64,000 nt of DNA from Gemmatimonadales bacterium (GCA_019637315.1 JAHBVU010000005.1:1-64000); one strand, 5' to 3'. Positions 5,580-22,212 are shown, counted from the first letter of the stretch. Made by a program: numbers and translations. Notes: generated by a model not told the origin, from the sequence alone.

Positions 5580-5819
5580 TCAGGTACGGTCGAAACCTGG
5601 TGCCCGGGTCGCCTCGATGCCGTAGGCTTCCACGCAAGCCGGGCAGATGCAGGCCAACCCGGCCAGCTCGGGCGGAACCCGGCTGAGCAGACCTGCCGGA
5701 ATGGTGGCCCCGGTACACCAGCAGGGGTTGCCGGCCGTTTCGGGCCGAGCCATGACGCACTCGTTGCCGGACTGGCAGAGCGGGCAGAGCGAGGTGTCAG
5801 GCGAGTCTGGCGCGGTCAT
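5580..5819 (-). CDS. Small cysteine-rich CWC-family protein
   Basis: About 79 residues and rich in cysteine. Pairs are spaced as CPLCQSGNEC, then NPCWCTG (the CWC signature), then CICPACVEAYG at the end, as in the Cys_rich_CWC family. The arrangement suggests a small zinc-binding protein of unknown role; no catalytic residues are evident. The ATG at 5819 is preferred because AAGGTG sits just upstream; an ATG at 5831 in the same frame is the alternative. It diverges from the SARP-type promoter at 5857-5934. Confidence 0.7.
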   Translation of the reverse strand: MTAPDSPDTSLCPLCQSGNECVMARPETAGNPCWCTGATIPAGLLSRVPPELAGLACICPACVEAYGIEATRAPGFDRT

Positions 5820-5856
5820 GGTCACCTTCATCGGTACGATTGCATCGGTTCAGGGC

Positions 5857-5934
5857 GTAATCTGTCCTCGTAAGACGTTGCAGGTCAACGGGTTGCGGCG
5901 TCGTAAGCGGCCGGTAAGTGGGTCCGGGTAGACT
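5857..5934 (+). promoter_or_regulatory. Predicted SARP-type promoter with GTAA direct repeats (site 1)
   Basis: GTAA occurs in the same orientation at 5857, 5870, 5903 and 5914. The last two copies (CGTAAGCGG and GGTAAGTGG) are 11 bases apart, and 5870 to 5903 is three 11-base steps. A -10-like TAGACT at 5929-5934 starts 8 bases after the heptamer GTAAGTG (5914-5920). In streptomycete SARPs, heptamer repeats at 11-bp spacing with the last repeat 8 bp from the -10 box are the known operator layout. The gene pair starting at 5962 encodes such a regulator, so autoregulation is inferred. Confidence 0.6.
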
Positions 5935-5961
5935 GGTGGCAGAACGGAACCGGAAGCTGCG

Positions 5962-6483
5962 ATGATGACCGACGACAATAACGTGAGCCGCACCGGAAAC
6001 TTCCGCGCCGTCGTGCGCGTGGGCAAGACGGCGACAGAATACGTCCGCTCCGGCTCCGGCCGGCCGGTGGTTCTGCTGACTCGGACCGCGAGCCCGCTGT
6101 CGCTCTGGAACGCTGTGATCGAAGCGGTGGCGGCTCGTTACCGGCTGATCGCGCCCGATGTGACTCCGGGTGCCGAGGATTTCGCAGGCTGGCTGGGGCC
6201 GTTTCTCGATGGGCTCGGCCTCTGTCGAGTCTCGATTCTGGCCGATGGCCCGATGTCGGCGCCGGCGATCGGGTATGCCATGCTCGATCCGGACCGGGTC
6301 GAGCGGCTGATCGTCATCACGCCGGCCGCCTCGTCCGTCGCCGAGCCGCTGACGGACGCGCCGGGGTCGCCCATGATCATTGGGGAGGGCCGGCCGATCC
6401 CGACCATCGTGGATGACGTGCTTCAGTTCCTGGAGGGGCCGGTCATGGCGGCTGCCCGAGGTGTTCGGACTGCCGACGCGTGA
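5962..6483 (+). CDS. Alpha/beta-hydrolase-like protein, short and lacking the usual nucleophile
   Basis: The product is 173 residues. It shows early alpha/beta-hydrolase strands (VVLLTRTASPLSLWNAVI, then YRLIAPDVTPG) and the helix after the nucleophile elbow (AIGYAMLDPDRVERLIVI). The elbow itself reads LADGPMSAPA, where active homologues have G-x-S-x-G, so the catalytic serine appears to be Gly. The protein also ends before the lid and the catalytic histidine region. I infer a non-catalytic ligand-binding or partner protein. It lies 22 bases upstream of the SARP-type regulator and shares its promoter. A second ATG at 5965 is possible. Confidence 0.65.
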   Translation: MMTDDNNVSRTGNFRAVVRVGKTATEYVRSGSGRPVVLLTRTASPLSLWNAVIEAVAARYRLIAPDVTPGAEDFAGWLGPFLDGLGLCRVSILADGPMSAPAIGYAMLDPDRVERLIVITPAASSVAEPLTDAPGSPMIIGEGRPIPTIVDDVLQFLEGPVMAAARGVRTADA

Positions 6484-6505
6484 GCGGCCCGACCTGAGAT
6501 ACGAT

Positions 6506-9397
6506 ATGTTACCTGCCTCGGCTGTCATGACCCCGACATCGTCGCCCGAACCAGCACCGCGGTTACCCCCGACGCCGCTCAGTCAGTTCATCGGTCGCGA
6601 GCATGAGCTCGACGCCATCGATGAGCTGCTCGGCGCCAACCGCCTGCTGACCCTGACCGGCGCCGGTGGCAGCGGCAAGACCCGGCTTGCCCGGGAAGCG
6701 GCAGTGCGCCTGGCCGCTCGGCGGGACGGCGTCGTCTGGGTCGATCTGGCCGCGGTGGTCGACGCCGATCAGGTGGTGCAGGGGCTGGTCCTGGCACTCG
6801 GCATGTCGGAGCAGGCGCCGGACGTCGCCTACGAACGAATAGCGGCGGCCATCGGGAACCGGGCCCTCCTCGTCGTCTTTGACAACTGTGAGCACCTGGT
6901 CGATGCCGCAGCCCAGGTGACCGAATGGCTGCTGACGCAATGCGCCAACGTCGTCGTCCTCGCCACCAGTCGGGAGGCGCTTGGCGTGATGGCGGAGACG
7001 GCCTGGCTGGTGCCTCCGCTCGCCATGGCTGAGGCGGTGGAACTGTTCGTGAGCCGGGCCCGCGGTGTGGTGCCGAACTTCACGCCGAGCGAACGGCATC
7101 GGGCCGTGATCGCGGACATCTGTCGGCGGCTCGACGGTATTCCACTGGCCATCGAGTTGGCTGCGGCCCGAGTTCGCGTCCTGTCGGTCGAGCAGATTGC
7201 GGAGCGGCTGGGCAGCGCGCTCAACTTGCTCAGTGCTGCCAGCCGAACCACGGTACCTCGGCATCGGACCCTGCGAGCCGCCTTCGACTGGAGTCATTCA
7301 CTCCTGAGCGAGCCTGAGCAGATCCTGCTCCGGCGGCTGGCCGTATTCCCGGCGGATTTCTCGCTCGATGCCGCGGAAGTCATCGGCAGCCTCGCGCCGC
7401 TCGGTTCGTTTGACATCCTGGACCTTCTGGCCGGGCTGGTCGACAAGTCGCTGGTGGTGCTCGAGTCGGCCGACAACGAGGCGCGCTATCGGTTGCTGGA
7501 GACGGTGCGCCAGTATGCGCAGGAGCACCTCGAAGCGGCAGGCGAGGGCGAAGCACTCCGTCGGCGCCACGCGCAGTATTTCCTGTCCATTGCCGAGGAA
7601 GCGGCTCCGGTAATCTTTGGCGGTCCGCCGAATCGCGAGATCGTCGATCGCTTGCTGGCCGAAGTGCCCAACTTTCACGCCGTGGCCGAGTGGTCGCTGC
7701 GGTCGGAGGAGGGCCCGGCCTATGCCTTCCGGCTGGTCTGGGCCCTCCACTGGTTCTGGTGGTCGCGGGGGCCGTCGGAGGAGAACTGGCGCCTGGCCGT
7801 GCTGCTGCAGCGCCCGACGGCTGTATCGCTGGTGACACGGGTGCGGGCACAGGTGGCGTTTGGTCATCTGGCGCTCTGGCAGTCGAAGATGGACCAGGCA
7901 TTCGGCTACCTGAACGAGGCCCTCATCAGCGTCCAGGATCTCGACGAGGATCGTGAGCTGCTGGCCTACATCCTGATCATGCGCGGGGCGGCCTTTGCCA
8001 TTGCCAGCGAGTTCGACGCGGCGGCCCGCGATCTCGAACGCGGAGTGGCCCTGGCCCGGGAGCACAGTCGCACCGTCATGGCCTGCATCGGCTGCCATTT
8101 CCTTGCGCTCTGCGCCGACCACCGTGGTGATCTCGATCAGGCCATCGAATGGCACCGGCTGGAAAGCGTCTATGCCAAGGAGGCTGCGCATCAGGGTGGC
8201 ATCGGCCATGGTCTGAGCGGCATGGCGCTGATGCTGGCGGTGGCCGGGCGACAGGGCGAGGCGCTGCCGCTCTATCGGCAGTCGCTTGCTCTGCACGCGG
8301 CGATCAGCGACGGATGGGGCATTACCAAGGGCGTCGAGGGCATCGCAGCCTGCCTCGTCGACGCCGACCCCGACTTGGCCGCCCGCCTGCTGGGGGCTGC
8401 GGAAGCTGGTCGGGAGCGGATGGTCTATCCGATGTGGCCCAAAGAAGCCACCCTGCGGGATCGTGCGGTGGCAGCCATCCTGCCCCAGGTCGGCGACCGC
8501 CTGTCGGCGCTCTGGGCCGAGGGGCGGGCGCTCTCGATGGATGCGGCCGTCGCACTTGCGCAGCAGGAAACGGTGGCCGACCTGCTGCCGCGGACGGCGG
8601 CCGTCGATCCGGTCTTGGCCGAGATCGAGCCCGCTGCGGCTCCGCCGACTCCACTCGTGGTGCGTGCGCTGGGGCACCTCGAGGTCCGGCTCCATGGTCA
8701 GCCGGTCGAGCCGGCGGCGTGGGGCTCTGCGCGGGCTCGCGAGCTGTTGCTGATGCTGCTCACCAATCCGCGGGGTCTGACCAAGGAGCAGGTCGGCACG
8801 GCCCTTTGGCCTGAGGCGTCCTCGGCGCAGCTCCGCAACGCGTTTCATGTCACCCTCCACCGCCTGCGCAAGGCGCTGGGTGGTACCGATCGAGTTGTCA
8901 GTGTCGACGAGCGGTACCGGCTCTCGCCGTCGCTGGAGGTGGAGTTCGACGCGATCAGCTTTGACCGTCAAATGTCTGCTGCATTGACGGCGGCTCGGCG
9001 GTCGGCGGCCGATGCGCCCAGGCTCCTGGAGGGCGCCCTGGCCCTGTATCGTGGCCCCTTCCTCGAAGGCGAGTCCGTGGGCGACTGGGCGCTCGAGGAT
9101 CGCGACCGGATCGAACGCCTGTTTGTTGACGGCGCCATGATGTATGCCGAATTGCTCCTCGCCGAAGGGCGTTATCAGGAAGTCGAAACGGTCTGTCTCC
9201 GCTTGCTCGAGCGTGACGGGTTGCATGAAGCGGCTTGGCGCTTGCGGATGACGGCGCACGCTCGTCGGGGCGCGCGGTCACATGCGCTTCGACTTTATCA
9301 GGAGTTGACAGCGCTCGTCGAGCGCGAACTCGACACCGAGCCTGACGATGATACGACCGATCTGTACCAGCGGATCCAGGCTGGCGAAGGAGTTTGA
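6506..9397 (+). CDS. Large ATPase transcriptional regulator with C-terminal SARP-type winged helix and BTAD domain
   Basis: About 963 residues from the ATG at 6506; ATG 6527 is an alternative. The N-terminal NB-ARC/AAA-like ATPase has Walker A GAGGSGKT at residues 52-59, Walker B ALLVVFDNCEHL near 130, and the GIPLAIELAAARVR motif near 220. A helical TPR-like region follows, about 330-680. From about 715 comes an OmpR-type winged helix (RALGHLEVRLHGQPV, then LLTNPRGLTKEQVGTALWP), then a bacterial transcriptional activation domain to the end (LYRGPFLEGE, ERLFVDGAMMYAELLLAEG, RLYQELTALVERELDTEP). AfsR-type SARPs place the DNA-binding part at the N-terminus; here it is C-terminal. It probably activates the two repeat-bearing promoters that flank it. 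Confidence 0.85.
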   Translation: MLPASAVMTPTSSPEPAPRLPPTPLSQFIGREHELDAIDELLGANRLLTLTGAGGSGKTRLAREAAVRLAARRDGVVWVDLAAVVDADQVVQGLVLALGMSEQAPDVAYERIAAAIGNRALLVVFDNCEHLVDAAAQVTEWLLTQCANVVVLATSREALGVMAETAWLVPPLAMAEAVELFVSRARGVVPNFTPSERHRAVIADICRRLDGIPLAIELAAARVRVLSVEQIAERLGSALNLLSAASRTTVPRHRTLRAAFDWSHSLLSEPEQILLRRLAVFPADFSLDAAEVIGSLAPLGSFDILDLLAGLVDKSLVVLESADNEARYRLLETVRQYAQEHLEAAGEGEALRRRHAQYFLSIAEEAAPVIFGGPPNREIVDRLLAEVPNFHAVAEWSLRSEEGPAYAFRLVWALHWFWWSRGPSEENWRLAVLLQRPTAVSLVTRVRAQVAFGHLALWQSKMDQAFGYLNEALISVQDLDEDRELLAYILIMRGAAFAIASEFDAAARDLERGVALAREHSRTVMACIGCHFLALCADHRGDLDQAIEWHRLESVYAKEAAHQGGIGHGLSGMALMLAVAGRQGEALPLYRQSLALHAAISDGWGITKGVEGIAACLVDADPDLAARLLGAAEAGRERMVYPMWPKEATLRDRAVAAILPQVGDRLSALWAEGRALSMDAAVALAQQETVADLLPRTAAVDPVLAEIEPAAAPPTPLVVRALGHLEVRLHGQPVEPAAWGSARARELLLMLLTNPRGLTKEQVGTALWPEASSAQLRNAFHVTLHRLRKALGGTDRVVSVDERYRLSPSLEVEFDAISFDRQMSAALTAARRSAADAPRLLEGALALYRGPFLEGESVGDWALEDRDRIERLFVDGAMMYAELLLAEGRYQEVETVCLRLLERDGLHEAAWRLRMTAHARRGARSHALRLYQELTALVERELDTEPDDDTTDLYQRIQAGEGV

Positions 9398-9502
9398 CCG
9401 GTCGTCACCAGTGATACCCTCGTGCAGATCAGGCCTCCGTTCCTGCGGCCGGGTTCGGAGTACCCGTCAGTTCCACCCCTCCCCAAATCGCCCCTCACTC
9501 CG

Positions 9503-9587
9503 GTAAGCAGTTGTAATCCACCCCCCGATCCGGTAATCAGGCTCGCGCGCGACCGGTAATCGCCCGGTAAGGTCGGGCTCCTAGGTT
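9503..9587 (+). promoter_or_regulatory. Predicted SARP-type promoter with GTAA direct repeats (site 2)
   Basis: GTAA occurs in one orientation at 9503, 9513, 9533, 9556 and 9567. Four of the copies have the longer core CCGGTAA (9500, 9530, 9553, 9564), and the last two copies are exactly 11 bases apart. A -10-like TAGGTT at 9582-9587 begins 8 bases after the heptamer GTAAGGT (9567-9573). This matches the geometry at 5857-5934, including the shared CCGGTAAG core. It precedes the 63-residue gene and the RCC1 lipoprotein, which I infer to be targets of the adjacent SARP-type regulator. The rest of 9398-9627 holds nothing else I recognise. Confidence 0.6.
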
Positions 9588-9627: not shown

Positions 9628-9819
9628 ATGTCGAAGGTTATTCGATTCTCCCAGGTCACCAAGGCCTATCTCGAATCCAAGCCGAACGACGTTATCGAGG
9701 TCCCGATGGCGCAACGGTACCGCCGCGCCGGGGTGTATTCCAAGGCCTACGCCGTCCGATACATCGAGGCAACCAGCCGCTATGAAGTGGCGCTGGTCAA
9801 CCTCGTTCACCGCAACTGA
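9628..9819 (+). CDS. 63-residue hypothetical protein
   Basis: I do not recognise this protein. From the ATG at 9628, with a short purine-rich stretch upstream (ACAGGGG), it encodes 63 residues starting MSKVIRFSQVTKAYLES and ending VNLVHRN. It is basic, with many Arg, Lys and Tyr, no signal peptide, no membrane segment and no cysteine, so a cytoplasmic protein is likely. It is the first gene after the second SARP-type promoter and lies 33 bases upstream of the RCC1 lipoprotein, suggesting co-transcription. Upstream in-frame ATGs at 9586 and 9604 overlap the -10 region and are unlikely. Confidence 0.6.
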   Translation: MSKVIRFSQVTKAYLESKPNDVIEVPMAQRYRRAGVYSKAYAVRYIEATSRYEVALVNLVHRN

Positions 9820-9852: not shown

Positions 9853-12126
9853 ATGTCCACCCTGCACTATTCGTGGCGAGCCGCTGTGCTGGCCCTGGCG
9901 CTGGCCGCCTGTGGCGACAGCGGTACGAACCCGAATCCGAATCCTCCGCCGCCACCGCCGCCCGCGCCCGTTGCGCAGGTTGACGTTGCGGGAGCTGCCG
10001 ACCTGCTGGTAGGCCAGTCGGCCCAGTTCACCGCAACAACCCGTGACGCCCAGGGTCAGCAGCTCACGGGGCGGACGGTCGTCTGGTCGACTTCGTCCGG
10101 CGCGGTTGCCGCCGTCTCGGCTGCAGGGATCGTGAGCGGTGTTGCCCCAGGTGCTGCAACCATTACCGCCACCTCTGAAGGCAAGACGGCCAGTCTGGCA
10201 ATCAACGTGAGCAGTGTTCCGGTGGCGGCAATCGTCGTGACGCCGGCCGCCCTTACACTCCAGCACACCCGGGACAGCGCGCTCGTGTCCGTCATAACCG
10301 CCGCCGATGGCACCGTGCTCGACCGGCCCGTGGCCTGGAGCAGCAGCGCACCGACCACGGTGCGAGTGCAGGCCGAGACGGGCGTGGTGACGGCGCTCGC
10401 GCTCGGCGAGGCAACCATTACGGCGCTGGTCGAGGGCAAGACGGCAACGACAACGGTGACCGTGGTGCCGCGTGCCGTTGCATCGGTTGAGATTGCCGTC
10501 GACGCGTTGACCCTGAAACTCGGCGCCGATACCACGTTCACCGCTGTGGCTCGCGACGACCGTGGCGTACCGATTACCGGTGCGGCTAAGACGTGGAGCA
10601 GCAGCAACCCCGCTGTCGTGACGGTCGATGCCGCGACCGGCGCTGTGAGCGCCGTCGAATCCGGTACGGCAACGATTTCGGCAACGTCGGCTGGCAAGAG
10701 CGCCCACGTCGTGGTCACTGTGGTGGCCCCGGTGGCGTCGGTGACGATTCAGCCGGTCCTCGATACCCTCGAAGCCTGGACCCAGCCGACCCTGGTGGCT
10801 GAGCTGCGTGACGCAAAGGGTCGCCTGCTCACCGGTCGGGAGGTGACATGGACCTCGTCCGATCCCGCCATCGCATCAGTACAAAACGCTGGCGCTGCGG
10901 GGAGCCCGTGGACCGTTCTCGGGCGCGACCGCGGAACCGTGACGGTCACGGCAACCAGCGAGGGCATCTCTGCGACGGCCACCCGCGTCGTCGTGATCAA
11001 GTACTACTCGGTATCCGTCGGTACCATGCACGCGTGCAATATCGCGAGCGGCGGCATCGTCTGGTGCTGGGGCCTGAACAGCGATCAGGGTCGGATCGGC
11101 AGTCCGGTGCTGGGGCCGACCGAGTTCAGCAGCAGGCCGATCCAGCTTACCGGTGGGCACAAGTTTGCCAAGATCTCGACCTATGCGCGCACCAGCTGCG
11201 GCATCACGATCGACGGCGAGGCCTTCTGCTGGGGCACCAACGCCTGGGGCGCTCTCGGTGCCGGGTCGAACGTCAGCGGAAGCTACCTGCCGCTCCGGGT
11301 GGCGGGTGGGCATCTGTTCGTGGACATCGCCACGGGCAGCGATCACTCCTGCGCAATCGACGACTCCGGCAAGGCATACTGCTGGGGGCACAACGATTGG
11401 CGCCAGCTTGGCACCGGCAACGCGACTGCCTCGAACGTACCGGTTGCCGTTGCTGGTAACCTCACCTTCCGCTCGATCGCTGCCGGGTCTGGCGCGGTCT
11501 GCGGTGTGGCAGTCTCCGGCGCATCCTACTGCTGGGGTGCCAACAGCATCGGTCAGCTCGGTGACGGCGGCAAGATCAGCTACGGCAACACCTTCATCTC
11601 GCTGCCCAACCAGGTCGTTGGGGGCCACAGTTTCGCGTCGATCGATCTCGGTAATCAGTTCACCTGTGCCGTCACCACGGGCGGCGCCGGCTACTGCTGG
11701 GGCAGCAACAGCGGCAAGCTGGGCATCGGCAGCGGCACGGAGTACTCGAGTCCGCAGGCGGTCGCGGGCGGGCACCTGTTCGAGCGGATCTCTGCCGGCG
11801 CCAACCATGCTTGCGGTGTTACCACCGTCGGTGATGTGTATTGCTGGGGCTCGAACGGCAACGGTCAGCTTGGCAACCCGATTGCCAACGGCTCGAGCCT
11901 GCCGATCAAGGCAGCAGGTACGCTCAAGCTGAGGGAAGTGGACGCGGCCGGTATCGGCACGGGTAGCGGGGCGCACACCTGCGCCATCAGCCGCGACCGG
12001 CTGACTACCTACTGCTGGGGTCGCAACGACGTCGGCCAGCTGGGCAACGATGCGACGACGGCGCCTGCGATCAGCAACCCGACTCCGTCGATTGTCTTCC
12101 AGCAGCGGCCCTTGCCCTGGAGCTAG
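9853..12126 (+). CDS. Lipoprotein with Big_2 Ig-like repeats and RCC1 propeller repeats
   Basis: A 757-residue surface or periplasmic lipoprotein: the signal peptide ends in lipobox LALAAC and is followed by a Pro-rich linker. Four bacterial Ig-like (Big_2) domains cover about residues 35-375, each with the W-S-S-S-x-P pattern and ending G-x-A-T-I-T-A-x-x-x-G-K-T. From about 380 to the end come RCC1/BNR-type blades recognised by repeated C-x-x-x and YCWG motifs (WCWGLNS, FCWGTNAWGALG, YCWGHNDWRQLG, YCWGSNGNGQLG). Paired cysteines in each blade suggest disulfides outside the cytoplasm. Ligand unknown. AGGATTGGAAC precedes the ATG. The IS element sits one base after its TAG stop. Confidence 0.85.
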   Translation: MSTLHYSWRAAVLALALAACGDSGTNPNPNPPPPPPPAPVAQVDVAGAADLLVGQSAQFTATTRDAQGQQLTGRTVVWSTSSGAVAAVSAAGIVSGVAPGAATITATSEGKTASLAINVSSVPVAAIVVTPAALTLQHTRDSALVSVITAADGTVLDRPVAWSSSAPTTVRVQAETGVVTALALGEATITALVEGKTATTTVTVVPRAVASVEIAVDALTLKLGADTTFTAVARDDRGVPITGAAKTWSSSNPAVVTVDAATGAVSAVESGTATISATSAGKSAHVVVTVVAPVASVTIQPVLDTLEAWTQPTLVAELRDAKGRLLTGREVTWTSSDPAIASVQNAGAAGSPWTVLGRDRGTVTVTATSEGISATATRVVVIKYYSVSVGTMHACNIASGGIVWCWGLNSDQGRIGSPVLGPTEFSSRPIQLTGGHKFAKISTYARTSCGITIDGEAFCWGTNAWGALGAGSNVSGSYLPLRVAGGHLFVDIATGSDHSCAIDDSGKAYCWGHNDWRQLGTGNATASNVPVAVAGNLTFRSIAAGSGAVCGVAVSGASYCWGANSIGQLGDGGKISYGNTFISLPNQVVGGHSFASIDLGNQFTCAVTTGGAGYCWGSNSGKLGIGSGTEYSSPQAVAGGHLFERISAGANHACGVTTVGDVYCWGSNGNGQLGNPIANGSSLPIKAAGTLKLREVDAAGIGTGSGAHTCAISRDRLTTYCWGRNDVGQLGNDATTAPAISNPTPSIVFQQRPLPWS

Positions 12127-12127
12127 A
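12122..12127. repeat. Left copy of 6-bp target-site duplication (GCTAGA)
   Basis: GCTAGA at 12122-12127 is repeated at 13162-13167, directly outside the two inverted repeats of the IS element. It is the expected target duplication and contains the TAG stop codon of the lipoprotein gene. Confidence 0.85.
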
Positions 12128-12154
12128 TGTAATTGATGAAGAGGTTGTTCACTG
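12128..12154. repeat. IS481-family left terminal inverted repeat
   Basis: 27 bases starting TGTAATTGATGAAGAG. They match the reverse complement of 13135-13161 except at positions 5 and 16. Confidence 0.93.
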
Positions 12155-12216
12155 AGCCGTAGCGCTGCAGAATGGGGTTTGTCGAGAACACACACCGGCA
12201 AACGCCAGAGGACTCA

Positions 12217-13140
12217 GTGAACCAGCATAAGTTAGCACGCTTAACGCCGCGGGGGCGGCAGCAGATGGTCGACCGGGTCGCCGACGGGGAGCCGGTCGCC
12301 GAAGTGGCGCGGCAGCTTCGCCTCAGTACCGTCACCGTCTGGCGCTGGTGGCGCCGCTATCAGGCGGAGGGGGCGGCGGGGTTGCAGGATCGATCGAGCC
12401 GGCCGCAGCGCTCCCCGCGCGCCACGCCGCGGTGGCGGCGACGCCAGATTGCCCGGCGGCGCGCGGCGGGCCGCAGTTCCCTCGAGATCGCCGCCGAACT
12501 CCAACTCCCCGTCTCCACGGTGGTGCAGGTGCAGCGGCGGCTCGGGTGGCGGCGCTTGCCCCCCCGGGAGCCGCCCCCGCCGATCCGCCGGTATGAGCGA
12601 CGGGTGCCGGGGGCGCTGGTCCACCTCGATATCAAGAAGCTGGGCCGGATCGGGCGGGTCGGGCACCGGATTCACGGGGATCGGCGGCAGCGGGTTCGGG
12701 GCATCGGCTGGGAGTACTTGCATGTGGCGATCGACGACGCGACGCGGCTCGCCTACGCCGCGCTGCTGCCCGATGAGACGGCGGCGAGCACGACCGCATT
12801 TCTCCAGGCGGCGGTCACGTGGTTTGCCCGGCAGGGGGTGCGCTGGCGGGCGCTGATGACCGACAATGGCGGGGGCTATCGGAGTCGGGTGTTTCAAGCG
12901 GCACGTCGGCAGCTGCGGATCCGGCACGTGTGGACTCGCCCGTATACGCCGCGGACCAACGGGAAGGCCGAGCGCTTCATTCGGACGACCTTGGCTGGCT
13001 GGGCGTATGCGGCGGCCTATCGGACGTCGGCGGTGCGGGCGACGTTTCTGCCCCAGTGGTTGCGGTATTACAATCAGGAGCGCCCGCACACGGCGCTGCG
13101 CTTTCAAACCCCGCAGCAGCGACTGGCGGCCAAACAGTGA
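12217..13140 (+). CDS. IS481-family transposase (DDE integrase core)
   Basis: About 307 residues from the GTG at 12217, preceded by AGAGGA. This start gives the family-typical N-terminus NQHKLARLTPRGRQQMV; an ATG at 12172 would add an unlikely tail. Two helix-turn-helix segments cover about residues 1-130 (EVARQLRLSTVTVWRWWRRY). The rve integrase core has Asp in GALVHLDIKKLGRIG, Asp in LMTDNGGGYRS and Glu in RTNGKAERFIRTT. It catalyses cut/copy-and-paste movement of its own element. The gene ends inside the right inverted repeat. No frameshift or stop is seen. Confidence 0.95.
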   Translation: MNQHKLARLTPRGRQQMVDRVADGEPVAEVARQLRLSTVTVWRWWRRYQAEGAAGLQDRSSRPQRSPRATPRWRRRQIARRRAAGRSSLEIAAELQLPVSTVVQVQRRLGWRRLPPREPPPPIRRYERRVPGALVHLDIKKLGRIGRVGHRIHGDRRQRVRGIGWEYLHVAIDDATRLAYAALLPDETAASTTAFLQAAVTWFARQGVRWRALMTDNGGGYRSRVFQAARRQLRIRHVWTRPYTPRTNGKAERFIRTTLAGWAYAAAYRTSAVRATFLPQWLRYYNQERPHTALRFQTPQQRLAAKQ

Positions 13141-13161
13141 ACAACGTCTTCATCAACTACA
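13135..13161. repeat. IS481-family right terminal inverted repeat
   Basis: 27 bases ending CATCAACTACA, complementary to the left end with two mismatches. The transposase TGA stop (13138-13140) lies within it. Confidence 0.93.
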
Positions 13162-13167
13162 GCTAGA
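13162..13167. repeat. Right copy of 6-bp target-site duplication (GCTAGA)
   Basis: Identical to 12122-12127. Removing the element and one copy restores a continuous sequence through the lipoprotein stop codon. Confidence 0.85.
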
Positions 13168-13362: not shown

Positions 13363-16300
13363 TCATGCCGACCCTCCCTCCATCTGGGGAGCCGGCGGAG
13401 TGCCGGCAGGCTGCCCCTTGCGTGCCTTCCGTCGCTTCGGCGTCGTTCGCTTTCCAAGCAGCATGGCAGGCAGGACCCAGAGTGCGCCGATCGTGCCGGT
13501 CACCGTCCCGCCAGCCGTTGCCAGCGCAATCGAGCCGAACAGGCTGTCGACCTCGGTGCCGACCGCGAGCGGAATCAGGCTGGCCATGGTCGTCAACGTC
13601 ACCAGCATGATCATGGCCGAGCGGTCGCGGGCGGCGTAGACGATATCCGCGCCGCTGAGTCGGCGTCCAACGAGATTGGCGCGACGGCGACGCTCGAGGG
13701 CGCCGTCGATAATCAGAATGGCCTGATTGGTGGCGAGGCCAATGACCAGAATGACGCCCACCGCAGCCTCCCGCCCAAATGAGGTGCCGGTGGCCCAGAA
13801 GATCGCGGCCACCCCCGCCAGCGCCATCGGCAGACTGGCAAAGACGAGCACCGCCGCCCAGGTCGAGTTGAACACGAAGGCCACCGACAACACGACCAGC
13901 GTCAGGCCGAGTGCCAGGACCAGCCAGAGTCCCTTGGTGCTGTCGTCTTCGGCCCACGAGAAGCGTTCGTCGTCGACCGTATAGCCGGCGGGCACACTGA
14001 TCGAACTCATGAATGACTCATGAGTTCGCTGCGCCAGCCGCGCCGGCCCGCGGAAGTCGTAGCTCACGATCCGAACGTACTGCTGATCCTCGCGCGTGAT
14101 CACGCTGAGGCCTTCGCGCTCCGAGACGAGCGAGAGATCCCCGATGCGCACAGGCGCCTGGGCTTCGTTCGGCACGATCGCGTCGCGCAGCTCGTCGAGC
14201 GCACGCTCCTGGGCACCCCGTGCCTTGACGTTGACCGTGAGCTCGTCGCCCTCGAGCTCCAGGCGCTGCCCGGCGCTGGCGCCCTGGACCTCCCGAGCCA
14301 CGGCGCGGCTGAACTCGGTCGTTGTCATACCGGCGCGGGCCAGGGCCGGTCGGTCGGGCGTCAGTGCGACGCTCACGGCCCGCTCGGAGCGGAAGAAGGA
14401 TCCGGCGTTGATGTTGACGTCACGGACTCGGGGAATTCGTTCCAGCCGAACCTGCAGATCACGGGCCAGCTGTTCGACCCCTGAGAACGAGTAGCCCAGC
14501 AGCTTGATGCGGAAGGCAACCGACATACCTCCGCCGCCGCTGAAGAAACCGGGCCCCTGACCGCGAACCCCGATCGATGCGCCACCGATGAAGACGGCAC
14601 GCTGGGTCATCTCTTCTTCCATCAGCGCCGGGATGATGCCGTAGCTTTCTTCGCGGGTAAAGGTGACCCGGAGTCTCCCCATCATGGGTAACCCGAACGC
14701 CTCGACCCGATCGACGCCATGCCTGCCAACCGCGATCCGCTCAAACTCCTGCATTGCTCGATCGACACTTTGTGGATCGGAGCCGTGGGGAAAGGTGATG
14801 CTCACGAAAAGCTCGGATCGCTGGCCGAACCAGTTGCCGAACGAACTCTTGGGTACCTGCTTGATGAAGCCCCACGTCAGCGTACCGAGCAGGGCAAGGG
14901 TCAGAACGAGGGTAACGGGTCGCCAGCGAACGGTGCCGATCACGCTTCGCGTATACCAGCGAACGGTCCGCCGGTAGGTGGTGCGCTGCATTCCGTGGCC
15001 AGACCCCACAGCGGGTATCATCACGACCGCGCTGAGCACCGACCAGGCCAGCGCGAGCAGGAACGCGGCAGCGAAGGGCAGGAAGGCGGCGCGGGCATTG
15101 CCTTGCAGGTAGAGAAATGGCATCAACACCACCGCCGTCGTCAGACTGGCGCCGATGACTGCCGGCATGATCCGACTTCCCGCTTCGGCGCGGCCCTCCG
15201 CCGTGTCCGGCGCATGTCGCAGCCGCTCCACGACGACCAGCCCGTTCTGCACCAGGACACCGATGCCCATGGCCAGTCCTGCAAGCGTCAGCAGGTTGGC
15301 GGGGATCTTGAGCACATACAGACCGAGTGCCGTGCCGGCAATGGCCACGGCCGCGCTGCCCATCACCAGCCACACCGACGTGAAGTTGCGCAGCATGACC
15401 GCGAGCACCAGCATCACTGCGGCAAAGGCAATCGCGCCGCGAAGCAGCAGGTCGTTGAGCTGCTCCTGGAGGTCGCGACTTTCATCGTTCTCGACTCGGA
15501 ACGTGATGCCCTCCGGCAGGATCCGCCGGATGTCCGCCATCGTCGCTTTGACCTGCTGAGCAGTCCGAATCGCATCGGCGCCTGCCAGACGGGACAGCTG
15601 CAGCGTGACGGTTGGCACTCCATTGATCCGCGCAAAGCGGCCCCGATTGTCTTCCTCGGGGCGAATCGTCGCGATCTCATCGAGGCGGAAGACGCGCCCG
15701 CTGGGCGCTCGCACCACGAGCCGACCGAGATCCTCGAGCGCGTGGGGCTGATCTCGCAGCGCGACCGTCACGACATTGGCGCCGCGGCGCTCGCGGCCGA
15801 GAGCCTCGACGACCCGGGCGCCCTCGATGGCCTGGCGAATCAGGGCAGGGTTGATCCCCAGCTGACGCAAGCGAAGCGGCTCGTAGACGACCGCAACCCC
15901 GGGCTCGGCGGTTCCCGAGAGCTGCACACCTGCGACGCCCGGCACGGCGGTGATCCGCGGCTCGATCTGATCCCTGGCGAGCTTGGTCAGAGTGCCGGCG
16001 GTGTAAGGCCCGATGATCGAATAGGTCAGGAGCGGTTGCTCTTCGAGTTCCTCCGGGGTGTAGTTCGCCACGGTTGGCGGAACCACCCCAATCGGAAATC
16101 GGGTGCGCAGCAGCTCGAGCCGTTCGTTGATCTCGAGTCGGGCCAGAGTCACGTCCGCTTTGGGCTCCAACTCCACCGTCAGGGACGACGACCCGTCCCG
16201 CGACTCGCTCGAGACCTTCTTGACGCCGCGAACTCCCTGGATCACCTCTTCGATCGGTGAGGTAACGTAGCTCTCGACCAGTTCTGGCGACGCGCCAAAC

Positions 16301-16446
16301 CAAGTGGCCGCAACCCGCAGACGCGGCAGCTCGACGGCCGTGCGCGTAGCGAGCGGCAGCTTGGTAAACGCGACACCGCCCGCGAGGATCAGGGCAGCGC
16401 CGAGCGCCCAGATGACGGCCGGTCGGCCCGCAGCCCAGCGGATCAT
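13363..16446 (-). CDS. RND efflux permease, second subunit (TM4 proton-relay Asp replaced)
   Basis: A 1027-residue inner-membrane RND permease of the AcrB/HAE type, with 12 expected membrane segments and two large periplasmic loops. N-terminal family signatures are YVTSPIEEVIQGVRGVKKV and ELEPKADVTLARLEINERL. The TM4 motif near residue 400 reads GIGVLVQNGLVVVE, whereas proton-coupled family members have Asp here (LLVDDAIVV in AcrB). The C-terminal repeat reads GLATNQAILIIDGALERR. The start overlaps the stop of the first permease by 4 bases (ATGA), so the two are translationally coupled and could form a mixed trimer like MdtB/MdtC. It is the last gene of the efflux operon. Confidence 0.9.
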   Translation of the reverse strand: MIRWAAGRPAVIWALGAALILAGGVAFTKLPLATRTAVELPRLRVAATWFGASPELVESYVTSPIEEVIQGVRGVKKVSSESRDGSSSLTVELEPKADVTLARLEINERLELLRTRFPIGVVPPTVANYTPEELEEQPLLTYSIIGPYTAGTLTKLARDQIEPRITAVPGVAGVQLSGTAEPGVAVVYEPLRLRQLGINPALIRQAIEGARVVEALGRERRGANVVTVALRDQPHALEDLGRLVVRAPSGRVFRLDEIATIRPEEDNRGRFARINGVPTVTLQLSRLAGADAIRTAQQVKATMADIRRILPEGITFRVENDESRDLQEQLNDLLLRGAIAFAAVMLVLAVMLRNFTSVWLVMGSAAVAIAGTALGLYVLKIPANLLTLAGLAMGIGVLVQNGLVVVERLRHAPDTAEGRAEAGSRIMPAVIGASLTTAVVLMPFLYLQGNARAAFLPFAAAFLLALAWSVLSAVVMIPAVGSGHGMQRTTYRRTVRWYTRSVIGTVRWRPVTLVLTLALLGTLTWGFIKQVPKSSFGNWFGQRSELFVSITFPHGSDPQSVDRAMQEFERIAVGRHGVDRVEAFGLPMMGRLRVTFTREESYGIIPALMEEEMTQRAVFIGGASIGVRGQGPGFFSGGGGMSVAFRIKLLGYSFSGVEQLARDLQVRLERIPRVRDVNINAGSFFRSERAVSVALTPDRPALARAGMTTTEFSRAVAREVQGASAGQRLELEGDELTVNVKARGAQERALDELRDAIVPNEAQAPVRIGDLSLVSEREGLSVITREDQQYVRIVSYDFRGPARLAQRTHESFMSSISVPAGYTVDDERFSWAEDDSTKGLWLVLALGLTLVVLSVAFVFNSTWAAVLVFASLPMALAGVAAIFWATGTSFGREAAVGVILVIGLATNQAILIIDGALERRRRANLVGRRLSGADIVYAARDRSAMIMLVTLTTMASLIPLAVGTEVDSLFGSIALATAGGTVTGTIGALWVLPAMLLGKRTTPKRRKARKGQPAGTPPAPQMEGGSA

Positions 16447-19400
16447 GAGGCCCGAGCTGCCCGCGCCAGCTTGCGCCGCTCGACCATCGCGTACACCGTC
16501 GGCATCAGGAAGAAGGTGACGAGGAGCGCGGTAATCGAGCCACCGATGACGCTGGCTGCCAGCGGCTGATAGAGCTCGCCACCGGCACCCCAGCCAAACA
16601 CCAGCGGAAGCACGCCGGCAATCGTGGTGATGGAGGTCATGGCAATGGCGCGCAACCGCTGCTGCCCGCCAAGCACGATGGCCTCTTCGATCGAGTGCCC
16701 CAGCTCGCGGAACCGACCGATCGCGTCGAGCTTGACGATGGCCTCATTGTCTGCCATACCGATCATCACCACGATGCCAATCAGTGCCACCGCATTGATG
16801 CTCTGACCGGTCAGCCAAAGAAGCAGGATGCCGCCAGCTCCCGCGAGGGGGACGGTGAGGAGAACCACAAGGGGTGTTGTGAACGAGGCGAACTCGCCGG
16901 CGAGCACCAGGAACACCAGTGCCACCGAGAGAACAGCGACCAGCATCAGCTGGTTGGTGGTGCGCCGCTGCTCCGCCTCGGCACCGCCCAGCGTGACGTC
17001 GACCCCGGGAGGCAGATCGACGCCTTCAAGAGCGCGTCGAACGTCGCGCGTGGCACGGTTGAGCCCCCCTTCCTCGGCCACTGCCTCGACCACGCTGACG
17101 GGCCGCTGGTTGATACGCACCACCTCGATCGGGGCACGAATATCCTTGACGGAGACCAGTTGTCCGACTGGAACACCCCTGATCGGAATTGCCAGCGCGG
17201 TCTGGAGGTCTTCGTTGAATGAACCGGTAAACCGGACCCGGATGGGGGTCCGCCGGTCGGTCTCCCGAAAGTCGCCCGAGTTGACGCCGCCCAGTCCGCC
17301 CGCCAGCGTGTTGGCGACCTGGCTGGCCGTGATGCCGAGCCGGGCCATCTGCGCCCGGTCGAGGGTGACTTCGATCGTCGGCTGGGTGCCGGCGTAGGCA
17401 TCGCGAACGTCTGCCAGGCTGGCGACTCCAGCCAGCTTGGCTCTGATCGCGTCGGCCCAGCGTGCTGACTCGTCGAGTCTGGGACCTGCCACCTCGACCC
17501 GCACCAGGCGCCCCTCTCGCCCGATCAGGCTACCGAACTCCGACTGACCCGCGAGATCGATGGCCAGACCGCCTTGGGCCAGGTCCGGCACCGCCTGGCG
17601 AAGCCGCTCGGCGAACGCGGCCGCACCCATCCGGTCCGGTACCGGCAGAAGCAGCTGCGCCGATGCGGAGGTACCAGGATCTGCGCCCGCCAGCACTTCC
17701 TCGTCCGTGGCAACGCCGATCCGGCTGTAGATCCCTGCGGACCCCAGAGTCATGGCCGCCTCCTCGAGCCGGCGCGCCTGGCGGGCCGTTTCCTCGATCG
17801 CGGTGCCTTCGGGCAGACGCAGGTAGGCCACCGCGATGCCCTCGTCGACCCGCGGCAGGATCTCTCTCGGCATCCGGCTCGCAACCGCAATCGTGCTCAG
17901 CGTGACCACAGCCGAGATCGCGATCACGGCGAAGGGGTGCTGCAGTGACCAGCGCATCCCGGCCTCGTACAGCCCCTCGAGACGATGGCCGACCCGGTCG
18001 GCGGCGCCGAGGAAACCGGTCGACGGACGCGGCGCCTTCGCGTTTGGCACTTTGCCGCGCGTCAGCAGGACGGGCATCAGGGTCAGGGCCAGAACGAGCG
18101 ATGCGCCGACGGACATCACGACACTGAGCGAGAGGTCGCGAAAGAGCGCAGCTGCCAACCCTTCGACGAACACGATCGGACCGAAGACGAGCAGTGTGGT
18201 GAGCGTACCTGCAATCAGCGGACCGGTGACTTCCTCGGTGCCGAGGCGGGCCGCTTCGAAGCGCCCCAAGCCCCTCTCGATATGCCGATTGGTCACCTCC
18301 GCTACCACGATGGCGTTGTCGACCAGCAACCCGATGCCGAGGGCCAGTCCGCCCAGCGAGAGAATGTTGATGGTGACGCCCATCAGCTGCAGCAGGGTCA
18401 GGGCGACCATGACCGAGAGCGGCACCATCAGCCCGATGGTGAGCGAGCTGCGCCAGTCACGCAGGAACAGCAGGATCACCAGCAAGGACAGCGCGCCGCC
18501 GATGAAGATCTCCTGGGTCAGGTTCGAGAGCGCGTCGTTGACGAACTCCGCTTGCGCAGCCACCACCCTGATCTGGAGGTCAGGGAACTCCTCGCGGAGG
18601 AGGTCGATGGCGCGGTAGATGTCACGAGTCACCGCCACCGTGTTGGCGCCGGCGTCCTTGTAGACCACCAGGCCCACGGCCGGCTTGGAGTCGAGCGTGG
18701 TGATCGTCGTCGGGTCGGCAAGGCCGAGCGAGACGGACCCGACGTCGCGGAGCGTGATACCACTGCGAGTCGGGCCTACCGGTGTGCTGGCAATCTCCTG
18801 CACGGTCTGAAACTCGGTCAGCGCACGCAGCGAGAAGCGGAACTGCCCCCGACGAACCGTACCGCCCGGAGCCTGCGGATTGGCGGAGCGGACGGCGGAT
18901 GCAACGTCATCCGGCGTGATGCCCAGCGCGCGGGTGCGCTCCGGATCGATCTCGACCCGGATCTCGTCCTCGGGCTCGCCGGCCACCGCCACGCTGGCAA
19001 CCCCGGCCAGTTGCTCCAGCCGGCGCGCATGCACGTCCCGCGCGGTGCGGGCAATGCTGCGCAGATCGCCGCTGCCCGTCAGGCCGAGCACGGCAATCGG
19101 ACGCTCGCCGGGGTCGCTGGTCAGCAGGGTGGGGCGCTCGGCGCGTTCGGGCAGCTTGCCGCGCGCATTGTCGAGCCGTTCGCGCACTTGAAGCACCGTG
19201 GTTGGCATGCTGGTGCCCCACGCAAAGCGCAGCGTGGTCGTCGCTTCGCCGGTCCGGCTGACTGATTTGAGCTCGACCAGTCCCGGCGTGGCCGCGACCG
19301 CCTCTTCGATCTGCTCTGCAATGAAACGCGAGACTTCTTCCGGCGCTGCGCCAGGATAGGCTGTTCTGATCGTCAGGACCGGCAGCTGGACGTCCGGCAG

Positions 19401-19508
19401 CAGCGAGACCGGAAGCTTGCCCAGCGACACCGCACCAAGCAGCACCATCGCCAGGACGGCGGCAATGGTCGTGACAGGCCGTCTGAGGGCCGAGGCGGCA
19501 ATCGACAT
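16443..19508 (-). CDS. RND efflux permease, first subunit
   Basis: A 1021-residue RND permease of the AcrB/HAE family. The N-terminus is typical: LRRPVTTIAAVLAMVLLGAV, then LPVSLLPDVQLPVLTIRTAY and PGAAPEEVSRFI. The TM4 motif near residue 394 reads LGIGLLVDNAIVVAEV and keeps the first proton-relay Asp, unlike its partner. The C-terminal motif is IGMADNEAIVKLDAIGRF. It should drive drug, metal or lipid export by proton antiport together with the adaptor and TolC proteins encoded just upstream, 15 bases after the adaptor gene. The substrate is not predictable; there is no metal-binding Met triad I can identify. Confidence 0.92.
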   Translation of the reverse strand: MSIAASALRRPVTTIAAVLAMVLLGAVSLGKLPVSLLPDVQLPVLTIRTAYPGAAPEEVSRFIAEQIEEAVAATPGLVELKSVSRTGEATTTLRFAWGTSMPTTVLQVRERLDNARGKLPERAERPTLLTSDPGERPIAVLGLTGSGDLRSIARTARDVHARRLEQLAGVASVAVAGEPEDEIRVEIDPERTRALGITPDDVASAVRSANPQAPGGTVRRGQFRFSLRALTEFQTVQEIASTPVGPTRSGITLRDVGSVSLGLADPTTITTLDSKPAVGLVVYKDAGANTVAVTRDIYRAIDLLREEFPDLQIRVVAAQAEFVNDALSNLTQEIFIGGALSLLVILLFLRDWRSSLTIGLMVPLSVMVALTLLQLMGVTINILSLGGLALGIGLLVDNAIVVAEVTNRHIERGLGRFEAARLGTEEVTGPLIAGTLTTLLVFGPIVFVEGLAAALFRDLSLSVVMSVGASLVLALTLMPVLLTRGKVPNAKAPRPSTGFLGAADRVGHRLEGLYEAGMRWSLQHPFAVIAISAVVTLSTIAVASRMPREILPRVDEGIAVAYLRLPEGTAIEETARQARRLEEAAMTLGSAGIYSRIGVATDEEVLAGADPGTSASAQLLLPVPDRMGAAAFAERLRQAVPDLAQGGLAIDLAGQSEFGSLIGREGRLVRVEVAGPRLDESARWADAIRAKLAGVASLADVRDAYAGTQPTIEVTLDRAQMARLGITASQVANTLAGGLGGVNSGDFRETDRRTPIRVRFTGSFNEDLQTALAIPIRGVPVGQLVSVKDIRAPIEVVRINQRPVSVVEAVAEEGGLNRATRDVRRALEGVDLPPGVDVTLGGAEAEQRRTTNQLMLVAVLSVALVFLVLAGEFASFTTPLVVLLTVPLAGAGGILLLWLTGQSINAVALIGIVVMIGMADNEAIVKLDAIGRFRELGHSIEEAIVLGGQQRLRAIAMTSITTIAGVLPLVFGWGAGGELYQPLAASVIGGSITALLVTFFLMPTVYAMVERRKLARAARAS

Positions 19509-19523
19509 ATGGAGCTGGCCCCT

Positions 19524-20663
19524 TTACCGCGTGCCGCGTTCCTGGCGGGCAACCATCCGCACCGGCGCATCGTGCGTCAGCGTCAGATGCCCTTCGATCA
19601 GCACGGTGTCGCCCGCCGCGACGGGGATCTGGCCGGTCGCGCTGTCGGGCAGAACTTCGGTTTCCAGGCCGTTGCTGCGACCGGGGAAGATGTAGACCCA
19701 CTGCGCCCGACCGTCGCGTGCGACGAACACGAGCGGCCGGCCGTCGCGCTCGATCACCGCGGAGGACGGCACCACGACGCGGCCGGGCAGCCGGGTCGCT
19801 TCGAGGCGGACGTCGGCGTACATCCCGGGGCGAAGCACGCTGTTGCTTCCGATCCGCACCACGGCGCGACCGGCCCGGGTGGTGCTGTCGACCATGGGCA
19901 GGATCGCCGCGATTCGTCCGCTGATCGGACGGTCGGCCACGGCAGCGGCGGTGACGGTTGCGTCACCTCCGATCCGAATCAGCGGCAAATCGTGTTCGAG
20001 GACCGACGCCTCGACTCGGAGGTTCGAGAGGTCGACGATCCGCCCGATGTCCTGGCCCTGGCTGAGTCGCTCACCGACCGCGACCCTGACCTCGTCGACC
20101 ACCCCGCTGAACGGCGCGACGATGGTGGCGCGTTCCCGCTGCAGCTTGGCGCGCTCGAGCTCTGCTTTGGCGCGATCGAGGCCGGCCCGAATCTCGGCGC
20201 TGCGCAGCCGCTCGCCCGTTACCGCGCGGCCGGTCACGATGGAGTCGCCGATGATGTTGTCGAGCACTTTGAGCTTGGCGTCATCGAGGGAGGCTTGGGC
20301 TTGCTCGACTGCCAGGTCGAGTTCGCGCGGGTCGACTTCGACCAGTACCTGGCCCTGGGTGACCCGATCGCCGGGACGAACCTTGACCGCGGTGATCGGC
20401 CCGGTGGTTTCGCTCTTGAGCATCGCGACCCCGTCGGAGCGCACCTGGCCCGTGGTGACGATCGAGAGCACCAGGTCGCCTTGACGGACCGCCTGGCCCA
20501 CCACGGGAAGGGTGACGCTGCCGGTGCTCGACTCGCCACCATCCTCGCCGTCGCCGCTGCCGCTGTCCGGTTCGGCTTTCTTACAGCCGGCCACGACGAA
20601 CAGCGGCAGCGCGACGGCAATCATGGTGCGCAGCAGCGCCGCGCCCGCTAGGCTTCGCTTCAC
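19524..20663 (-). CDS. RND periplasmic adaptor (membrane fusion) lipoprotein
   Basis: A 379-residue lipoprotein with signal peptide ending VVAGC at Cys27. The adaptor architecture is clear: a biotinyl-lipoyl-like half (ITAVKVRPGDRVTQGQVLVE near residues 93-112), a short alpha-hairpin (DPRELDLAVEQAQASLDDAK to LERAKLQRERATI), the second lipoyl half (VAPFSGVVDEVRVAVGERL), then beta-barrel and membrane-proximal domains (RPGMYADVRLEATRLPG). It links the inner-membrane RND pump to the outer-membrane TolC channel. The start overlaps the TolC gene stop by 4 bases. Confidence 0.92.
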   Translation of the reverse strand: MKRSLAGAALLRTMIAVALPLFVVAGCKKAEPDSGSGDGEDGGESSTGSVTLPVVGQAVRQGDLVLSIVTTGQVRSDGVAMLKSETTGPITAVKVRPGDRVTQGQVLVEVDPRELDLAVEQAQASLDDAKLKVLDNIIGDSIVTGRAVTGERLRSAEIRAGLDRAKAELERAKLQRERATIVAPFSGVVDEVRVAVGERLSQGQDIGRIVDLSNLRVEASVLEHDLPLIRIGGDATVTAAAVADRPISGRIAAILPMVDSTTRAGRAVVRIGSNSVLRPGMYADVRLEATRLPGRVVVPSSAVIERDGRPLVFVARDGRAQWVYIFPGRSNGLETEVLPDSATGQIPVAAGDTVLIEGHLTLTHDAPVRMVARQERGTR

Positions 20664-21964
20664 AACGTCCTCCCGATCAGGGCTTCGATCTCGGCTTTGG
20701 CAAGTATGTACTCGAACCGGGCCCGTACCGCTTCGGCCTCGGCCGCGTCGAGCTGCTCCTGTGCCCGGCTCAGCACATCGATGGTCAGGGACCCGATCCG
20801 GTACCGCTCCAACTGGACCCGAACGAGGGCGCGGGCGGCATCGAGGTTGGCCAGCGCCGTGGTCACTCGAATCTCCGCCGCGCGGAGCGCTGCAAGCTGC
20901 GTCGTCAGGGTGGCGCCCACCTCGCGACGGGCGTCAGCGGCCTGAGCCGCGGCCGACTCATAGTCGCTGCGGCGCGTGGCAATCTGCTGCTCGCGCTGAA
21001 AGCGATTGAACAGCGGGTAACTGAACCCGAGATTCATCGAGCGGCTGTTGTAGAGCTGATACTCGTTGAGACGGCTGCCGGCAAACGAGGTGTTGGCCGT
21101 CAGATTGAGGCTCGGGAAGTAGAGCGACTTGGCAGCGCTCAGGTTGGCCGCAGCCGCGTCCTCGGCGGCTTCGGTCCGCAGCACGTGCGGGGCCTGCCGC
21201 AGCGCCTCGGCGCGCAGGGCATTGGTGTCGGCCACGTTCGCGGCGCCGAAAAGCGACGAATCGATTACGGCGCTGACCCGGCCGTCCTCGCCAATCAGCC
21301 GACCCAGCCCCGCCTCACTCGCGGCAAGTTGTCGTTCCTCGGAGGCCAGCCGAAGCCGGGCCTCGTTCAGCGTAACCGTGGCGGTCAGCGAGTCCGCGAC
21401 GTTGGCGGCGCGGGTCGCCAGCCGGGCAATCGCGATCTGAAACTGCTCCTCGGCGCGTCGGATGGCCTCCCGCCGCACCGCGACGAGCTGCGCCGTCTGC
21501 GCCGCGTCGATGAACGCTCTCGTGGTGCGGAGGCGGTTCTGGGCCCGCTGATAGTCGACGGCGGCGTCGGCCTGGGCGCGTGATGCTCTTGCAGCAGTCA
21601 GGTCGCGTCCGCGGCGGAAGCCGGTGAACAAGTCGTAGGTCGCGCTGGCACCGAGGCTCAAGCTCGAATTGGTGGAGCCGCCAGGCAGAATCTCGTTGGT
21701 CGTTGGGTCGAGGCGGGACGGACCGTCGGAAAAGCTGGTGCCCCAGGTCGCCGTCGCGCGGAGGTCGGGGAGAAACTGCCCGTAGGCGGTTCGTACCGCG
21801 GCCGACGTGTTGCGATAGGTACCGAGCGCCTGGATGACCTGGGGGTCGACCCGTTCGGCCCGGTCCAGGGCCTCCTGGAGGGTCATCCGCCGCTCCTGCG
21901 CATGAGCTGGGTGCAGGATCACGACGCCGAGGGACGCGGCAAGAATGATATGTCTTAGAGCCAT
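20660..21964 (-). CDS. TolC-family outer membrane efflux protein
   Basis: About 434 residues from the ATG at 21964; a GTG at 21979 is possible. A signal peptide ends at AHAQ. Two OEP repeats form the long helical barrel: first repeat MTLQEALDRAERVDPQVIQA and AVRTAYGQFLPDLRATATW; second repeat starts VLRTEAAEDAAAANLSAAKS with LYFPSLNLTANTSFAG. It gives the outer-membrane exit duct for the RND pump and is the first gene of the four-gene efflux operon. No regulator gene is adjacent. The 248 bases upstream show no promoter I would trust. Confidence 0.9.
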   Translation of the reverse strand: MALRHIILAASLGVVILHPAHAQERRMTLQEALDRAERVDPQVIQALGTYRNTSAAVRTAYGQFLPDLRATATWGTSFSDGPSRLDPTTNEILPGGSTNSSLSLGASATYDLFTGFRRGRDLTAARASRAQADAAVDYQRAQNRLRTTRAFIDAAQTAQLVAVRREAIRRAEEQFQIAIARLATRAANVADSLTATVTLNEARLRLASEERQLAASEAGLGRLIGEDGRVSAVIDSSLFGAANVADTNALRAEALRQAPHVLRTEAAEDAAAANLSAAKSLYFPSLNLTANTSFAGSRLNEYQLYNSRSMNLGFSYPLFNRFQREQQIATRRSDYESAAAQAADARREVGATLTTQLAALRAAEIRVTTALANLDAARALVRVQLERYRIGSLTIDVLSRAQEQLDAAEAEAVRARFEYILAKAEIEALIGRTL

Positions 21965-22212
21965 GGGGCCTTGGGCCACGGGTCAGTTAGGTTCGCCAAA
22001 TGGAAGCGGTGCTGCAAGGATGCGCCAACCCTGAAAAGGGACGCAGGCCAATCTTTTCAATCTTGGGAACGCGGGTGGCAGCCCCATGACATCAACATTA
22101 CGGGGCGATGACAGTCCGGCGTAGCTCAGGAGCGTCCCCACGCAGGGCTATGGCCAGACCTTCGGTGCCTCTGACATGGGCTTAGGCTCGGTCGGGCATC
22201 GGCACGGTCGGG

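Follow-up and report, generated by a model that had tools for sequence, protein, structure and literature searches.

SARP-style operator geometry at promoters around a STAND–BTAD regulator in Gemmatimonadota

Genes and proteins at the locus

The window (the whole 64-kb stretch of DNA that was analysed) contains a two-gene operon, followed on the same strand by the genes for a small protein and a lipoprotein; both gene pairs are preceded by a promoter with repeated GTAA motifs (Table 1). The second gene of the operon encodes the regulator, with its start codon at either 6506 or 6527. A Pfam search places NB-ARC/AAA at its N-terminus and BTAD at its C-terminus (4e-24). MalT and other LAL-type LuxR regulators likewise have an N-terminal STAND ATPase and a C-terminal DNA-binding domain, in the same order as here; unlike the present protein, in which the Pfam search found no GerE match, they bind DNA through a LuxR-type (GerE) HTH. 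Instead, an OmpR-type winged helix is followed by BTAD, which is a feature of the SARP family. The predicted structure of this C-terminal domain has a pLDDT of 95, and its only PDB matches at E ≤ 0.001 are AfsR and EmbR, with TM scores of 0.74–0.81 (normalised by query). EmbR (Mycobacterium tuberculosis) shares the winged helix and BTAD fold, but differs from the regulator in carrying an FHA domain at its C-terminus and lacking a STAND ATPase. Among the DNA-contact residues of AfsR, Q81, R92, R94 and K95 are kept, whereas T88 and R87 are changed (to V and H); this replacement fits recognition of a different heptamer.

The first gene of the operon, which the earlier note did not mention, encodes a conserved protein with an α/β-hydrolase fold in its predicted model. 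Foldseek relates it to haloalkane dehalogenases and epoxide hydrolases (E 4e-9), with about half of the target covered. Members of this family have 130–190 residues, i.e. about half the normal hydrolase length; they lack the catalytic features of true hydrolases (GXSXG nucleophile elbow and catalytic His), in that their C-terminal part is short and the GXSXG motif is absent from all 12 members (12/12). The gene precedes that of the regulator in operons with an upstream site, and the pseudo-hydrolase is perhaps a sensor or adaptor of the regulator.

Several neighbouring features are of separate interest. A divergent gene for an 83-residue, Cys-rich CWC protein occupies positions 5580–5831 (minus strand), and the extra GTAA copies at 5857 and 5870 sit between this gene and operator 1. 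The 63-residue protein has no relative among the loci searched. At the end of the lipoprotein gene lies an IS481-type element (12123–13166; transposase 12172–13137) with 32-bp terminal inverted repeats (12123–12154 and 13135–13166, 91%). Its left repeat holds the lipoprotein stop codon (12124–12126), so the gene may have been shortened by the insertion. Downstream of the element, positions 13363–21979 (minus strand) hold genes judged from their ORF sequences to encode two adjacent RND-type pumps, a periplasmic adaptor and probably an outer-membrane factor.

By its GyrA the genus groups with Gemmatimonadaceae, and the genome is therefore treated as Gemmatimonadota. Identity to the GyrA of a Gemmatimonadaceae MAG is 68%, rising to 83% within a short N-terminal stretch; actinobacterial and chloroflexal genomes give 44–54% along most of its length, and 70% is reached in one short fragment, from a Rubrobacter MAG.

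Table 1. Positions of the operator elements and genes discussed; coordinates refer to the window unless a locus is named.
Feature	Position	Strand	Basis or remark
Extra GTAA copies before operator 1 (two: 5857, 5870)	5857..5873	+	
Operator 1, heptamer 1, GTAAGCG	5903..5909	+	sequence, genome-wide pattern, relatives
Operator 1, heptamer 2, GTAAGTG	5914..5920	+	11 bp after heptamer 1
Operator 1, −10 element TAGACT	5929..5934	+	8 bp after heptamer 2
Truncated α/β-hydrolase-like protein, 173 aa, first gene of operon	5962..6483	+	no GXSXG
Regulator: STAND NTPase (NB-ARC/AAA), helical/TPR region, C-terminal winged helix and BTAD	6506..9397	+	
C-terminal SARP domain (winged helix and BTAD)	8666..9394	+	recognition helix AQLRNAFHVTLHRLRKAL
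Extra GTAA copies upstream of operator 2 (three: 9503, 9513, 9533)	9503..9536	+	
Operator 2, heptamer 1, GTAATCG	9556..9562	+	sequence, genome-wide pattern, relatives
Operator 2, heptamer 2, GTAAGGT	9567..9573	+	
Operator 2, −10 element TAGGTT	9582..9587	+	8 bp after heptamer 2
63-aa protein of unknown family	9628..9819	+	first gene after operator 2
Lipoprotein with Big_2 Ig-like domains and RCC1 repeats	9853..12126	+	predicted target
GTAATCG-N4-GTAATG element	L149:1501-1532; L150:1501-1532	L150: reverse	regulator not nearby

Operator geometry

The earlier note had described GTAA repeats before and after the regulator operon, phased as in streptomycete SARP promoters, and the positions are as it gave them: all nine copies are present (5857, 5870, 5903 and 5914; 9503, 9513, 9533, 9556 and 9567), and the last two are exactly 11 bp apart at both promoters (5903/5914 and 9556/9567). 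The 8-bp gap also holds, from the end of GTAAGTG at 5920 to the start of TAGACT at 5929 in operator 1, and from the end of GTAAGGT at 9573 to the start of TAGGTT at 9582 in operator 2. The Poisson tails for such clusters are 4e-7 (four GTAA in 61 bp) and 8e-9 (five in 68 bp). No other GTAA pairs at 11 bp occur in the window; dinucleotide shuffles yield 0.05 such pairs per 64 kb, and 0.0 for a pair plus TAG. The pattern GTAA-N7-GTAA-N10..12-TAG has three matches in the whole 3.9-Mb genome, two of them at these promoters. A sigma-70 consensus scan detected neither an ordinary promoter nor a consensus −35 at operator 1 or 2. The GTAA at 5870 lies 33 bp (three turns) 5′ of heptamer 1 of operator 1; the spacings of the extra copies (13 and 33; 10, 20 and 23) are not a conserved feature among relatives, and with no conservation behind it an auxiliary role for these copies is not supported.

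SARP promoters are described as carrying direct repeats at a spacing of 11 or 22 bp, the −10 lying 8 bp from the 3′ repeat (PMC10936776). Both properties recur at the regulator loci of related genomes. There, GTAA pairs number 16 at 11 bp (in 13 loci), and no other spacing has more than four; GTAA and TAAG rank top of the 256 tetramers. The negative control, 80 loci (845 kb) of distant STAND homologues from named genomes, is without the motif, with one GTAA pair at 11 bp in the 845 kb. Loci that lack a GTAA pair show nine TAAKC pairs at 11 bp, four at 12 bp and no more than two elsewhere, against one at 11 bp in the control loci. Of 17 sites, 13 have a NANNNT −10 at a gap of 8 bp and three at a gap of 9 bp; the last is an upstream pair whose neighbour serves instead. 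These 17 sites were picked solely on GTAA-N7-GTAA, so that the −10 played no part in their selection; they are partly orthologous (L156 and L158), and thus not all independent. In seven of 11 operons the start codon comes 6–9 nt after the −10, a distance in keeping with leaderless transcripts that also supports the −10 assignment. If −12 to −7 is assigned to the −10, heptamer 1 spans −38 to −32 and heptamer 2 spans −27 to −21, a placement near that of the AfsR repeats (−40 to −30 and −29 to −19; PMC10936776). The operator covers the −35 to −20 region.

The claim of a new repeat sequence stands in that the heptamer is distinct; its consensus is GTAAKCG (more widely [GT]TAAKCG), not CCGGTAAG as had been proposed. 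The preceding CCG is not conserved. Neither CGGCAAG of PimR nor CGTT[TC]ATCG of AfsR matches the consensus. The PimR heptamer (PMC5930380) is one base from the window's CGGTAAG; among the relatives the CGG part is not conserved.

Sites in the genome and in relatives

In its own genome, the pattern GTAAKCG-N4-GTAAK-N11-ANNNT has five exact matches and none at one mismatch; with two mismatches there are 16, about the control level. The looser form TAAKC-N6-TAAK-N11-ANNNT matches seven times, versus zero in the reversed control. Two of these seven sites are those in the window, before the regulator operon and before the 63-aa/RCC1 gene pair. The third precedes the operon of a paralogous regulator (contig C7), the fourth and fifth two lipoprotein genes adjoining a paralogue, one with Big_2 and PD40 domains (C14), the sixth a further lipoprotein gene (C30), and the seventh a gene for a cupredoxin-like secreted protein (C22); the lipoprotein, cupredoxin and secretion assignments were judged by eye from the sequences. 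On its own, GTAA-N7-GTAA shows no enrichment over the genome (10 versus 17 in the control), so only the position and the extended form of the pair are informative.

The genome thus holds three regulators of the clade and seven sites, some on other contigs, and the idea of a closed regulon falls. Comparative genomics otherwise upholds the combination that had been put forward, namely SARP-style geometry beside a BTAD regulator, outside Actinobacteria, with the regulator operon and a lipoprotein; the closed regulon and the repeat consensus are the parts that do not survive. The three paralogues keep nearly the same recognition helix, so that any of them may be the one that binds a given site, and paralogous regulators may share targets.

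A search of related genomes, which had been suggested as a check, finds the element phased at 11 bp beside orthologous regulators. In orthologues and paralogues of the genus and family it is placed either upstream of the operon or between the regulator and the next gene. Within the genus, sites occur in all three genomes that encode a full-length orthologue and in none of the three that do not. A scan of the family (102 genomes) gave 13 matches versus three controls, and other families of the class also carry the element. When 287 genomes of the order were scanned without bias, eight exact matches were returned versus one control; six of the eight precede a pseudo-hydrolase/regulator operon, one a Big_2 lipoprotein gene and one a gene of unknown function. 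One relative (L162) has three sites, serving its own operon, a divergent lipoprotein gene and a downstream lipoprotein gene.

The distribution is patchy. About half of the class-level homologues have no recognisable site within 1.5 kb, and most of them keep the recognition helix. Site-bearing regulators do not form one clade on the protein tree, where site presence is scattered and needs at least eight changes.

Some further loci were noted in passing. An exact site in L198 (reverse strand 1501–1532) lies upstream of a gene for a Met/His-rich secreted protein, possibly metal-related, which is a possible target. The sites in L147 and L148 were taken as chance, having no fitting downstream gene. 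Two genomes of another genus (g16) have a conserved GTAATCG-N4-GTAATG between an ECF-sigma-like gene and the next gene (L149 and L150); the regulator is absent nearby, and these sites were left uncounted. In the relative G002:C35, a Ser/Thr protein kinase with TPRs is encoded directly after the regulator (L156:465-2768, minus strand), an arrangement reminiscent of the AfsK–AfsR pair.

Proposed mode of action and its alternatives

Very probably, the regulator is a large SARP of reversed domain arrangement (STAND-TPR-SARP) that activates its own operon and nearby surface lipoprotein genes via sigma adaptation, using the new heptamer [GT]TAAKCG; the case is built from comparative sequence analysis and structural models. 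Two protomers would occupy adjacent heptamers that are spaced at 11 bp and share one face of the helix. The first heptamer would stand in for the −35 box and the second would end 8 bp before the NANNNT −10, so that the regulator, like AfsR, could present the promoter to sigma region 4. In this way it would turn on its own operon (pseudo-hydrolase and regulator) and the neighbouring surface lipoprotein gene, presumably under the control of ATP and the pseudo-hydrolase partner. We infer that the regulator binds the predicted operators; the geometry appears compatible with activation via sigma region 4 and RNA polymerase, and together with the fold it points to activation instead of repression.

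Repression or autorepression by the same regulator is suggested by the overlap of the element with the promoter core, and the −35 to −20 region covered by the sites is indeed one where repressors bind too. A repressor, however, needs no fixed gap to the −10, whereas here the gap is fixed at 8 bp, and the lack of a consensus −35 together with an AfsR-like fold fits activation of weak promoters; repression is therefore improbable. Still less probable is that another factor, such as an alternative sigma factor or an unrelated regulator, reads the element and that its targets merely happen to include these operons. The bipartite sites of g16 between an ECF-sigma-like gene and its downstream gene indicate that similar sequences can arise without this regulator, but sigma-factor motifs do not consist of tandem direct heptamers phased at 11 bp, the sites are missing from those genomes of the genus that lack a full-length orthologue, and most of the unbiased matches precede the regulator operon. 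It is scarcely credible that the GTAA copies cluster by chance and that a reader then singled out the geometry. Patterns chosen by a reader do invite selection, and the bare pair shows no genome-wide enrichment, yet this explanation is refuted by conservation across genera, families and the class, by the spacing test in further loci and by the independent −10 test.

Activation by the regulator, as preferred here, has its closest parallel in AfsR, a large SARP of Streptomyces coelicolor that binds the afsS promoter. Both combine a winged helix and BTAD fold with STAND/NOD and helical repeats, and both have 11-bp direct repeats near −35, a weak −10 and no good −35 (PMC10936776). In AfsR the SARP domain is N-terminal, whereas here it is C-terminal, behind the STAND and helical regions; further differences lie in the repeat, here [GT]TAAKCG, in the phylum, and in what is predicted to be activated, namely surface lipoproteins and the own operon. 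PimR and other SARP-LAL regulators resemble the present case in having heptamer direct repeats with 4-bp spacers; unlike here, the main operator of PimR comprises three heptamers and does not overlap the −35. SARPs have been stated to be found only in actinobacteria (PMC10972967; PMC7040171); the host here has a Gemmatimonadaceae-like GyrA, and the gene neighbours encode lipoproteins, not an antibiotic cluster. Literature on SARP or BTAD with Gemmatimonadetes, Gemmatimonadota or Gemmatimonas yielded nothing relevant.

A wider reading is more tentative and somewhat doubtful: Gemmatimonadota would have a class-wide signalling system in which a truncated, catalytically dead α/β hydrolase acts as ligand sensor for a STAND-SARP switch, and this switch would use sigma adaptation to turn on its own operon together with a surface lipoprotein.

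If this wider reading is true, activation of the SARP type would belong to bacteria in general and not to actinobacteria, and its altered DNA code could be read from the recognition helix. The operator geometry on which SARP action depends is conserved here in a second phylum, with a different heptamer, reversed domains, and surface lipoproteins as predicted targets versus antibiotic genes. The analysis yields a predicted set of seven promoters in one genome and a testable DNA code, and so offers a handle on gene control in Gemmatimonadota, for which the literature searched describes no such regulon.
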